NCBI RefSeq assembly: GCF_003471585.1
Contig: NZ_QRJO01000002.1
Coordinates: 156,232 to 220,231 of the forward strand
Reading direction: 5' to 3'
Length of the DNA stretch: 64,000 nucleotides
Source of the DNA: Collinsella sp. AM18-10
GTDB taxonomy: Bacteria > Actinomycetota > Coriobacteriia > Coriobacteriales > Coriobacteriaceae
The notes under the pieces are model-generated. The model was not told the DNA's origin. It did not search any database and saw only the letters and a program-made list of their open reading frames with translations. Made by a program: the position numbers and the translations under genes. The first letter of the stretch is position 1, and the number at the start of each line of letters is the position of its first letter. Shown piece after piece: positions 950 to 8,026 of this stretch.

Positions 950-2260
950 TTACTCGTCCAGCGCGGCGAAGGCCTGCTTCAGATCCCAAATGATGTCCTC
1001 GGCGTTCTCGGTACCGATGGAAAGACGGATCGTGGAGGGCGTGATGTTCTGCTCGGCGAGCTCCTCGGCAGAGAGCTGGGAGTGCGTGGTGGTAGCCGGG
1101 TGCACGACGAGCGACTTGACGTCGGCCACGTTGGCGAGCAGCGAGAACACCTGCAGATGATCGATGAACTTCCATGCAGCCTCCTGGCCACCCTTAATCT
1201 CAAAGGTAAAGATCGAGGCACCGCCACGGGGGAAGTACTTCTGATAGAGCTCGTGATCGGGGTGCTCAGGCAGGCTCGGGTGATTCACCTTGGCGACGTG
1301 GCTGTCACCAGCCAGGAACTCAACGACCTTCTTGGTGTTCTCGACATGGCGGTCAACGCGCAGCGACAGAGTCTCGGTGCCCTGGAGCAGAACCCAGGCG
1401 TTGAACGGGCTGATGCAGGCGCCCTCGTCACGCAGCAGGATAGCGCGGACATAGGTTGCGAAGGCGGCGGGACCGGCAGCCTCGGCAAACGAAACACCAT
1501 GGTAGGAGGGGTTGGGCTCAGCGATCTGGGCGTACTTGCCACTCGCCTTCCAATCGAAGTTACCGCCGTCGACGATCACACCGCCCAGCGAGGTACCGTG
1601 GCCGCCGATGAACTTGGTTGCGGAGTGGACGACGATGTTGGCGCCGTGCTCCAGCGGACGGAACAGATACGGGGTGCCGAAGGTGTTGTCGACGACAACC
1701 GGCAGACCGTGCTTCTTGGCAATCTCGGAGATGGCGTCGATGTTGGGGATGTCGGAGTTGGGGTTGCCGAGCGTCTCGAGATAGATGACCGTGGTGCTGT
1801 CCTTGATGGCACCCTCAACCTCTTCCAGGTTATGGGCATCGACAAACGTGGTCTCGACGCCAAACTGGGAGAGCGTATGCTCCAGCAGGTTGTAGGAGCC
1901 ACCGTAGATGGTCTTCTGAGCCACCACGTGGTCACCAGCCTGGGCAAGAGCCTGCAGGGTATAGGTGATGGCAGCAGCGCCGGAGGCGACGGCAAGACCT
2001 GCCACGCCGCCCTCGAGCGCGGCGATACGGTCCTCGAAGACGCCCTGGGTGGAGTTGGTCAGACGGCCGTAGATGTTACCGGCGTCGGCAAGACCAAAGC
2101 GGTCGGCGGCGTGCTGGGAGTTGCGGAACACATAGCTCGTGGTCTGGTAGATAGGCACGGCACGGGAGTCGGATGCGGGATCGGCACTCTCCTGGCCAAC
2201 GTGCAGCTGCAGGGTATCGAAACCAAAGGTGTGCTCGGGGTTGTTGATGAACTGGCTCAT
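950..2260 (-). CDS. metY: O-acetylhomoserine aminocarboxypropyltransferase / sulfhydrylase
   Basis: A PLP enzyme of the Cys/Met metabolism family, 436 aa. It makes homocysteine from O-acetylhomoserine and sulfide (direct sulfhydrylation), feeding methionine synthesis in the cytoplasm. The PLP lysine lies in HSATKFIGG (K216), with the ring-stacking Asp at D191 (VVDNTFGTP). The PNPSYHG stretch and the length of about 430 aa are typical of MetY rather than of cystathionine gamma-synthase (about 380 aa). The ATG has AAGGAGA just upstream, but this ribosome site can be masked by leader RNA pairing (see 2266-2346). A LysR gene is divergent at 2533. A terminator follows, so it is probably monocistronic after the leader peptide. 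Confidence 0.95.
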   Translation of the reverse strand: MSQFINNPEHTFGFDTLQLHVGQESADPASDSRAVPIYQTTSYVFRNSQHAADRFGLADAGNIYGRLTNSTQGVFEDRIAALEGGVAGLAVASGAAAITYTLQALAQAGDHVVAQKTIYGGSYNLLEHTLSQFGVETTFVDAHNLEEVEGAIKDSTTVIYLETLGNPNSDIPNIDAISEIAKKHGLPVVVDNTFGTPYLFRPLEHGANIVVHSATKFIGGHGTSLGGVIVDGGNFDWKASGKYAQIAEPNPSYHGVSFAEAAGPAAFATYVRAILLRDEGACISPFNAWVLLQGTETLSLRVDRHVENTKKVVEFLAGDSHVAKVNHPSLPEHPDHELYQKYFPRGGASIFTFEIKGGQEAAWKFIDHLQVFSLLANVADVKSLVVHPATTTHSQLSAEELAEQNITPSTIRLSIGTENAEDIIWDLKQAFAALDE

Positions 2261-2265
2261 GATGA

Positions 2266-2346
2266 TCTCCTTGATCGAACGAAAGTAAGTAAAAGGAGAG
2301 AAGTAAGTCGCTGTCTCCTGATCACGCCGACGGGCGCAAACAGGAG
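2266..2346 (-). promoter_or_regulatory. Candidate translational attenuator in the metY leader
   Basis: Four complementary segments lie on the minus-strand RNA: 1 CUCCUG (2341-2346, inside the leader ORF), 2 CAGGAGA (2314-2320), 3 UCUCCUU (2293-2299) and 4 AAGGAGA (2266-2272, the metY ribosome site). Possible pairs are 1:2 (with an inner CGCC/GGCG stem), 2:3 (AGGAGA/UCUCCU) and 3:4 (7 bp, masking the ribosome site). A ribosome paused at Cys codon 12 covers segment 1 and lets 2:3 form, exposing segment 4. A ribosome at the leader stop covers segment 2 and lets 3:4 form. This predicts higher metY translation when charged Cys-tRNA is scarce. Confidence 0.6.
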
Positions 2347-2375
2347 CCCGGCATTCGTCTTGGTAAGCAATTCAT
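2322..2375 (-). CDS. Cysteine-containing 17-aa leader peptide of metY
   Basis: A short frame too small for usual gene calling: MNCLPRRMPGSCLRPSA then TGA. It has a strong AAAGGAGG ribosome site just upstream of its ATG at 2375. It ends 61 bases before the metY start. Cys codons are at positions 3 and 12; codon 12 (TGT) lies directly at the edge of RNA segment 1 of the downstream pairing array, and the stop codon lies just before segment 2. It is therefore a plausible sensor peptide whose translation controls metY. Cysteine-coding leader ORFs upstream of sulfur genes are known in mycobacteria. The exact function here is inferred. Confidence 0.7.
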   Translation of the reverse strand: MNCLPRRMPGSCLRPSA

Positions 2376-2513: not shown

Positions 2514-2532
2514 TATCGAAAGGATGGTGTCG

Positions 2533-3435
2533 ATGACCCTTCAGCAGCTTCGTTTTCTGATCACCGTGGCAGAGTCCGGCTCAATCAACGCCGCAGCTCA
2601 ACGCCTCTATACTGCTCAGTCCAACATCTCAAACGCCGTCAAAAGCCTGGAACAGGAGCTCCATCTGGAGATCTTTACGCGCTCCAGCCGCGGCGTCACG
2701 CTCACCAACGACGGCACCGAGCTTTTGGGCTATGCGCGCCAGGTCGTAGAGCAGGCCGACATGCTCGAGGCACGCTACGAGGACGGCGGCACCCCGCAAG
2801 CCCGCCTCGCCATTTCCGCCCAGCACTACGCCTTTTCGGTCGAGGCCTTTGTCAACGTAGTCGAGCGCTGCCGCGACAGCAAGTTCGAGTTCATCATGCG
2901 CGAGACCACCACATCGCAGATCATCGACGACGTGCGCGCGTTTCGCAGCGACATCGGCATCCTCTATCTGGACGACTTTAATACCCGTGTCTTGCAGAAG
3001 GCCTTCGCCGATGCCCGCGCAAGCTTCCATCCCCTCTTCGACGCGACGGTCCACGTCTTCGTCAGCGAACGCCATCCGCTCGCACGCCGCCCTCAACTGT
3101 CCCTTGCCGACCTCACGCCCTATACGCGCTACAGCTTTGAGCAGGGAACCTCAAACTCCTTCTATTACGCCGAGGAACCCTTTAGCTATATCCCTTGCGA
3201 CCGCAACATACGAATCTCGGACCGCGGAACACTTACCAACTTACTTATCACGTCGAACGGTTACACCCTGTCGACCGGTGTCCTCTCCAATGAAATGCAA
3301 TGGGGCATGGCATCGATCCCGTTAGCAGACGCCCCAACGATGCACGTTGGCTACATCATGCACGACGAGCGCAAGCCCTCTCTCCTCTTGCAGCAATACC
3401 TCGACGAGCTCAACCGCATCATCCATGCCAGCTAA
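2533..3435 (+). CDS. LysR-family transcriptional regulator, likely of metY
   Basis: A 300-aa LTTR of usual length. The N-terminal winged helix-turn-helix spans residues 1-60 (LQQLRFLITVAESGS, then the recognition helix AQSNISNAVKSLE and LFTR-like IFTRSSRGV). The remainder is the periplasmic-binding-protein-like effector domain. The ATG at 2533 is preferred over the in-frame ATG at 2524 because AAAGGA then sits 8 bases upstream and the product begins at the conserved helix. It is divergent from metY and shares the dyad at 2493-2513, so activation of metY in response to a sulfur metabolite is the simplest reading. The effector cannot be read from the sequence. Confidence 0.9.
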   Translation: MTLQQLRFLITVAESGSINAAAQRLYTAQSNISNAVKSLEQELHLEIFTRSSRGVTLTNDGTELLGYARQVVEQADMLEARYEDGGTPQARLAISAQHYAFSVEAFVNVVERCRDSKFEFIMRETTTSQIIDDVRAFRSDIGILYLDDFNTRVLQKAFADARASFHPLFDATVHVFVSERHPLARRPQLSLADLTPYTRYSFEQGTSNSFYYAEEPFSYIPCDRNIRISDRGTLTNLLITSNGYTLSTGVLSNEMQWGMASIPLADAPTMHVGYIMHDERKPSLLLQQYLDELNRIIHAS

Positions 3436-7597: not shown

Positions 7598-8026
7598 CTA
7601 ACCCTCGACCTCAACGAGCTCGATATCAAAGTTGAGGTCCTTGCCGGCCAGCTCGTGGTTGGCGTCGAGCGTCACAGCCTCGGGCGTTACGTCGATGACC
7701 ACGGCGGGAACGGGCATACCGCTCGGCGTGGACAGGAAAAGCTTCATGCCCTTCTCGATCTGCTCGATGTTGGGAACCTGTTCGGCCGGGAAGGTCAGAA
7801 CCATCTCGGGATTGTGCTCGCCGTAGGCATCGGCAGCAGGAATGTGCACGGTCTTCTTCTCGCCCACCTGCATGTCGACAACAGCGGCGTCGAAGCCCTT
7901 GATCATCTGACCGGCGCCGCAGGTGAACTCCAGCGGCTCGCCGCGATCGTAGGAGCTATCGAACTGCGTGCCGTCATCGAGCGTGCCGCGATAATGGGTC
8001 TTGACCTTCTTGCCCTGGTTGGACAT
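7598..8026 (-). CDS. SlyD-like FKBP-type peptidyl-prolyl isomerase
   Basis: 142 aa. The FKBP fold is interrupted by the insert-in-flap domain: FDSSYDRGEPLEF and GQMIKGFDAAV belong to FKBP, and AYGEHNPEMV through SGMPVPAVV is the chaperone flap. DANHELAGKDLNFDIEL is the SlyD family signature. The His/Cys-rich metal tail of E. coli SlyD is missing. The start at 8026 has GGAGGT 4 bases upstream; an upstream in-frame ATG at 8056 lacks a site. It is first gene of a two-gene operon with the UreE-like protein, and both families handle nickel in other bacteria. Confidence 0.9.
   Translation of the reverse strand: MSNQGKKVKTHYRGTLDDGTQFDSSYDRGEPLEFTCGAGQMIKGFDAAVVDMQVGEKKTVHIPAADAYGEHNPEMVLTFPAEQVPNIEQIEKGMKLFLSTPSGMPVPAVVIDVTPEAVTLDANHELAGKDLNFDIELVEVEG

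Follow-up and report, generated by a model that had tools for sequence, protein, structure and literature searches.

Collinsella sp. AM18-10 carries, in the 64,000-nucleotide stretch of DNA analyzed here (hereafter the window), a metY gene for an O-acetylhomoserine sulfhydrylase of 436 aa (950..2260, minus strand, ATG at 2260; NCBIfam TIGR01326, 608.9 bits against a cut-off of 495.1). Our findings argue, with somewhat better than even confidence, that the leader of this gene is a ribosome-sensed switch and belongs, as a derived form without a terminator, to a family of Met/Cys leader-peptide attenuators. The computed support consists of a conserved leader ORF, a conserved helix (1:2), an enrichment of Met and Cys codons, sulfur-related target genes, and a competition with terminators in folding predictions. 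Such leaders would make up a family of Met/Cys attenuators in gut bacteria that resembles a regulon, and the window would exemplify how transcription attenuation may have given way to a translational form with a shifted sensor. They also give meaning to small ORFs that are seldom predicted in databases.

The locus reads on the minus strand. Downstream of a predicted promoter-like site, TTGACC-17-TACTAT (2472-2444; 9/12 positions in a consensus scan), lies an ORF of 17 codons (2375-2322) with its own ribosome site, AAAGGAGG, directly 5' of it. It encodes MNCLPRRMPGSCLRPSA, the leader peptide of the C. aerofaciens group. The Cys3 codon is found at 2369-2367, the Met8 codon at 2354-2352, the Cys12 codon at 2342-2340 and the stop codon at 2324-2322; CGA-ATG (Arg7-Met8, 2352..2357) is the most conserved part of the leader. 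The window's leader has a single Cys3 and a single Cys12, and a run of Cys codons near the stop is absent from it. The original prediction had described four pairing segments at this locus, and these do exist. Segment 1 (CTCCTG, 2346-2341) and segment 2 (CAGGAG, 2320-2315) are the 5' and 3' arms of helix 1:2, segment 3 is the pyrimidine-rich TCTCCTT (2299-2293), and segment 4 (AAGGAGA, 2272-2266) is confirmed as the metY ribosome site, invariant in a 20-row alignment of the C. aerofaciens group. Pairings 1:2, 2:3 and 3:4 can each form and are mutually exclusive. Two details were corrected: Cys12, placed at segment 1, overlaps the 3' end of that segment, and the stop codon, placed just before segment 2, is already within the 3' arm of hairpin 1:2. 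It is part of an inner helix of this hairpin (TTGCGCC/GGCGTGA, 2322..2339) that is paired in all 17 distinct sequences of the group. The minimum-energy fold contains a fourth alternative pairing, between the leader's own ribosome site and segment 1, and the whole leader folds modestly better than its shuffles (z -2.0; 6/200 shuffles). No intrinsic terminator, as a transcriptional attenuator would carry, was found in the window's metY leader.

Upstream regions of metY were compared at 30 loci out of 58 relatives searched, plus 80 named loci. The loci whose metY is 98 to 100% identical to that of the window belong to Collinsella aerofaciens or Collinsella sp. A CGAATG-bearing leader lies close to metY in 22 of the 30 loci (21/23 in the same genus, 1/7 in others) and is lacking in C. 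tanakaei (L020/L056) and in L022. Among the named loci, 47 of 80 have a CGAATG-type leader ORF, a count in which the starts were chosen by script, L056 is not included and L104 is doubtful. All 20 aligned rows of the C. aerofaciens group keep the leader ORF with small changes, and leader and hairpin are far better conserved in this alignment than the spacer that follows. The expectation that relatives keep a leader ORF, complete with a ribosome site, ahead of metY was borne out. Cys12, which was also expected to be kept, is not conserved among hairpin-bearing relatives outside the C. aerofaciens group; conservation falls on the Met of CGA-ATG instead. Other Collinsella encode MQLTAMFMMRMPSSRP and similar peptides, Slackia encodes MRHTKRMPNSR followed by the stop, without any Cys, Lachnospiraceae-type MAGs encode IMCCRMLNSRA, and other Clostridia encode LVRANFRFGRMCCC or RFGRM-stop. 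Arg-Met is invariant across 15 aligned leaders, all of them preselected by CGAATG. Clostridial metY leaders (L062, L071, L094, L097, L100 and others) show a strongly conserved LVRANFRFGRM-type peptide and no 1:2 hairpin; some end straight after Arg-Met and others continue into Cys runs.

Helix 1:2 was borne out by pairing and covariation. In a first hairpin alignment of 19 sequences, 94.0% of the cells were paired, compared to 88.3% after shuffling. The corresponding values for 49 members (alignment A4) are 96.0% and 90.3%, to be read with caution as A4 is fitted to a covariance model; the same caution extends to the drop in pairing to at most 58.1% when the partner is slid, and to the six pairs with changes on both sides (shuffled mean 2.9; 0/500 shuffles reach 6). 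A4 holds 49 of 55 sources, the near-duplicates L110, L139, L169, L174 and L186 being omitted and L108 having no match, and three chance matches were removed by E-value. Since CGAATG-bearing sequences were the input for the first model, sampling leans towards this motif. All 17 distinct leaders of the C. aerofaciens group have a complete 1:2 hairpin (221/221 cells), which says little since it hardly varies there.

Helix 1:2 and the leader ORF recur together in distant relatives. A covariance model (R1), run on 296 genomes of the class, had matches in 58 of them at E <=0.1, the weak ones being partly chance. Twenty of the weaker Coriobacteriia matches were fetched and comprised 12 real leaders and 8 chance matches. 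A weak model match inside the window (7711-7766, plus strand) was taken as chance. In the order of the L098 genome, a Lachnospiraceae-type MAG, R1 matched 18 of 295 genomes at E <=0.01, and 20 of 21 matches from this order look real, the exception being L183. When 398 genomes from the wider phylum of this MAG were searched, a further model (R2) had matches in 5, the MAG itself included; among 296 Actinomycetota genomes it had matches in 7, including one Collinsella. Since R2 missed the C. aerofaciens form in genome G001, these numbers are minimum values. The six matched genomes outside the class had no convincing leader, and a spread of the family across the wider Actinomycetota was rejected. 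Related leaders occur in Coriobacteriia and in Lachnospiraceae-type Clostridia, and the element is not confined to Coriobacteriia.

The idea of a sulfur-amino-acid leader peptide holds for the family, whose leaders are enriched in codons for the amino acids of their targets, as expected of attenuators. Codons -5 to -2 before the aligned Met specify Met or Cys in 116 of 196 cases, compared to 52/196 and 2/196 in the other two frames. Codons were also counted by position in a list of 49 leaders that omits L047 (window type) and L137 (no clear start) and includes L188 and L189. There the Met plus Cys share at -5, -4, -3 and -2 is 50, 67, 55 and 69%, and falls to 0% at -1, where 45 of the 49 leaders have Arg. 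Four of the 49 have no Met or Cys between the start and the aligned Met. The run is lost in the window, where Cys3 (-5) is the only Met/Cys codon upstream of Arg-Met. The enriched codons sit ahead of segment 1. A ribosome covers about 12 bases beyond the first base of its A-site codon; by this footprint, segment 1 begins just beyond the edge of a ribosome that waits at -2 and is covered by a ribosome at the aligned Met. Codon make-up seems to track the target gene, with 27% Met in seven metQ/metN leaders (three of them near-identical) and 27% Cys in the single cysK leader. The metQ leaders L141, L143 and L146 read MTMAMSM-(Y/H/S)-MPSSRA; ahead of the aligned Met they have several Met codons but neither Cys nor CGA.

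The targets of the family, assigned by family models and similarity, are metY, MetQ, MetN and CysK, together with a family-3 substrate-binding protein, an amino-acid ABC permease and an MFS transporter. A U-run follows segment 2 in 31 of the 49 members, mostly behind a hairpin that uses segment 2; that of L047, from the C. aerofaciens group, is spurious, so that 30 members remain. The mean predicted terminator probability is 0.43 with the ribosome edge at -2 and 0.78 with the edge past segment 1, and it rises by more than 0.2 in 22 of the 31 U-run members (21/30 without L047). The members without such a rise are L065 (reversed), L098, L141, L144, L145, L149, L182, L184 and L185. For two of these, L182 and L184, the measure does not count the terminator, as it seems to begin before segment 2; in L098 and L185 helix 1:2 barely forms in the fold. 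Because the terminator gains when segment 1 is covered, starvation should favor helix 1:2 and read-through in most members. Helix 1:2 should then be the ON state in terminator-bearing relatives, opposite to the scheme originally proposed.

In the mechanism that we favor for most family members, a ribosome awaiting Met-tRNA or Cys-tRNA at positions -5 to -2 would halt before segment 1, allowing helix 1:2 to form, hindering the terminator that shares segment 2 and permitting transcription of the sulfur gene. When Met and Cys suffice, the ribosome would cross segment 1 and the terminator would form. The C. aerofaciens group has lost the terminator, and here the partner of segment 3 could instead be segment 2 or the ribosome site of metY. 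A ribosome slowed over segment 1 (Met8 to Cys12) would free segment 2 to hold segment 3, leaving metY open, and a ribosome finishing at the stop or waiting at Cys3 would leave it closed; with no ribosome the prediction is mixed. We infer the stalling of ribosomes and the residue that is sensed, and translation-level attenuation is our best guess for the leader in the window. This form would make helix 1:2 the closed state, an inverted polarity compared to terminator-bearing relatives. It is in this inversion, coupled with the lost Met/Cys run, that the explanation is least secure.

Folding predictions for the window follow this scheme in part. The openness of the metY ribosome site is 0.03 with the ribosome at Cys3, 0.70 at Met8, 0.66 at Cys12 and 0.03 at the stop, and the predicted opening is attained by 0 to 2% of 60 spacer shuffles, depending on the measure. 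Across 16 distinct sequences of the group, the means are 0.30 at Cys3, 0.64 at Met8, 0.62 at Cys12 and 0.31 at the stop. The Met8-minus-stop difference in this set is 0.33, against 0.05 in shuffled spacers, and exceeds 0.1 in 14 of the 16 sequences, against 25% of shuffles; L040 runs the opposite way and L015 barely shifts. These sequences are close relatives and not independent, and the trend is therefore support rather than proof. The claim that pausing opens metY and termination closes it is upheld in its direction by 14 of the 16 folds, but Cys12 is not unique in this, as Met8 gives the same result. A metY site closed by default is not borne out, since the untranslated site in the window is 0.57 open when folded from the leader's ribosome site on, because that site then pairs with segment 1. 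Over 20 sequences of the C. aerofaciens group, the openness of the untranslated site ranges from 0.05 to 0.80.

The pairings of segment 3 are less constant. Segment 3 is variable inside the group, and its pairing is kept in shifting registers only: of 17 distinct group sequences, 9 to 10 break the 2:3 and 3:4 pairs seen in the window, and an alternative register keeps five pairs in all 17. Covariation of 2:3 and 3:4, which had been anticipated, is absent from the C. aerofaciens group or rests on a single cell. We also considered the ribosome-site switch as a general trait of terminator-less Coriobacteriia and rejected it. Among 14 such sequences, 12 were scored (the window, L047 and ten others; L049 and L151 were unscored), and the ten others gave no clear opening. 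In this test the window goes from 0.03 to 0.55 open, which 2.5% of shuffles attain, and L047 is unmoved. L159 goes from 0.41 to 0.51 (7.5% of shuffles), L021 moves in the opposite direction, and L134 remains shut at 0.16-0.17, although its shuffles close further.

The leader could serve in C. aerofaciens only for basal translation, through coupling or re-initiation, with regulation left to other elements upstream; we regard this as unlikely. A gene for a LysR-type regulator (2524-3435, plus strand; Pfam HTH_1 and LysR_substrate) diverges from metY, and a palindrome between the two genes, GTTATCT-N7-AGATAAC (2493-2513), may, as read from the sequence, be its operator. Comparison of upstream regions also points to a GTAGG box near the metY promoter (about 2425-2418, minus strand) as a candidate operator. 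This box precedes metY in many loci, with or without the leader, and is found in 42 of 92 distinct upstream regions, many of them near-identical, against 5.3 after shuffling. The lost Met/Cys run and the untranslated leader, which is not clearly closed, would also fit a purely basal role. Such a role would leave unexplained why leader and hairpin are much better conserved than the spacer behind them, and why this spacer preserves the direction of the switch in 14 of 16 sequences. The original form of the switch, a Cys-specific translational attenuator in which a stall at Cys12 opens metY, we now hold to be quite improbable. The predicted openness in the window at Cys12 as against the stop is in its favor, and Cys12 is present in all 20 aligned rows of the group, with a synonymous TGT/TGC change in L047. 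Met8 predicts the same opening, however, and Cys12 follows from segment 1 reading CTCCTGT and not CTCCCGG, so that it may be a by-product of pairing. As for the key codon, only two C. aerofaciens-group rows of A4 have Cys at the equivalent position, and none of the 47 hairpin-bearing relatives outside the group does (Arg 44, Gln 2, Trp 1). The hairpin-less clostridial leaders L066 and L107 have Cys at this place, inside a Cys run.

No more probable is an arrest at Arg-Met (CGA-ATG), caused by the nascent peptide or by a slow CGA codon or codon pair and tuned by a sulfur metabolite rather than by plain starvation. In alignment A4, 45 of 49 members have CGA before the aligned Met, none of the 49 has another Arg codon there, and CGA is retained where a synonymous codon would leave the peptide unchanged. 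A search for an RNA partner complementary to CGAATG found none (5.5 against 5.3 shuffled). NFRFGRM-type peptides are conserved in 15 of 23 clostridial-type leaders, which were chosen by CGAATG and therefore cannot test this reading. L062, L094, L097 and L100 end right after Arg-Met, as ...(N)FRFGRM-stop or NYRFGRM-stop, with TAA, TAG or TGA as the stop. Three of these four have no Met or Cys besides the start (in L100 this depends on the chosen start), which plain starvation explains poorly and which feeds the arrest-peptide reading. On the other hand, three metQ leaders and L168 have another codon in place of CGA, L149 reads CGA-CTG, and the Met/Cys enrichment fits starvation sensing without arrest. 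Less probable still is a broader version, in which CGA-AUG would be a programmed stall and an arrest peptide, NFRFGRM at its most conserved, would sense a sulfur metabolite before homocysteine synthase genes. The stall would be combined with Met/Cys runs and hairpins according to lineage, and in C. aerofaciens the leader would be reduced to a form that depends on this stall.

The family of Met/Cys attenuators to which we assign the window's leader is apparently undescribed, judging by Rfam, Pfam, NCBIfam and a search of mostly freely available literature, which yielded only related but different systems. A covariance-model search of the window and six related loci ruled out a known riboswitch, T-box or other Rfam family: in the window only tRNAs reach the gathering score and two matches in the leader fall far below it, and the six loci gave one chance match far below it. 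Six leader peptides, a set without the window's 17-residue peptide, matched no Pfam or NCBIfam family. Fourteen database proteins match leader peptides at E <=1; two of them carry a name, both hypothetical.

Ribosome-mediated transcription attenuators of the trp/his/ilv type use amino-acid-coding leader peptides. They share with the family a short ORF with a ribosome site, codons for the target's amino acids, alternative hairpins and, in many relatives, terminators. The family differs in that its leader shares two amino acids, Met and Cys, and the window's leader differs further in having no terminator and having lost most sensor codons. In ErmC-type translational attenuators, the position of the ribosome decides whether a ribosome site is paired, as proposed for the window; the signal is an antibiotic for ErmC and would be an amino acid here. 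Further work on the Cys leaders of mycobacteria and actinobacteria was reportedly done by Canestrari in 2020. Cys leaders are described in mycobacteria, P. acnes and B. longum (Seliverstov et al., PMC1262725). The accessible part of this source describes the mycobacterial and actinobacterial leaders as having Cys runs near the stop, and reports for them no conserved terminator-like hairpin and, before methionine operons in Actinobacteria, no conserved RNA structure. These leaders resemble the family in placing Cys codons ahead of sulfur genes; as far as that part goes (PMC1262725), the covarying hairpin, the ribosome site and the additional Met codons set the family apart.

The metL leader before metNIQ in Streptomyces lividans ends in ...CMCRRMCAF and, in the accessible text of its source, has a leaderless start and several hairpins but no typical terminator (PMC8079986). 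It shares with the family Met/Cys codons and an Arg-Arg-Met before methionine transport genes; its leaderless start is unlike the family, and at the level of sequence we see a resemblance only (PMC8079986, same text). The exact pattern CMCRRMC had no match in 296 Actinomycetota genomes. The uORFC-8-2 motif before cysS in Rhodobacterales, as described in the accessible part of PMC8632094, has Cys codons 14-15 inside its first stem. It resembles the family in its Cys-codon leader, conserved stem and terminator, and differs in target, lineage and codon position. Genome G096, from the genus of the window's nearest relative, has a Met-rich family leader (L147/L192) before a cobalamin-independent methionine-synthase-like (metE-like) gene.
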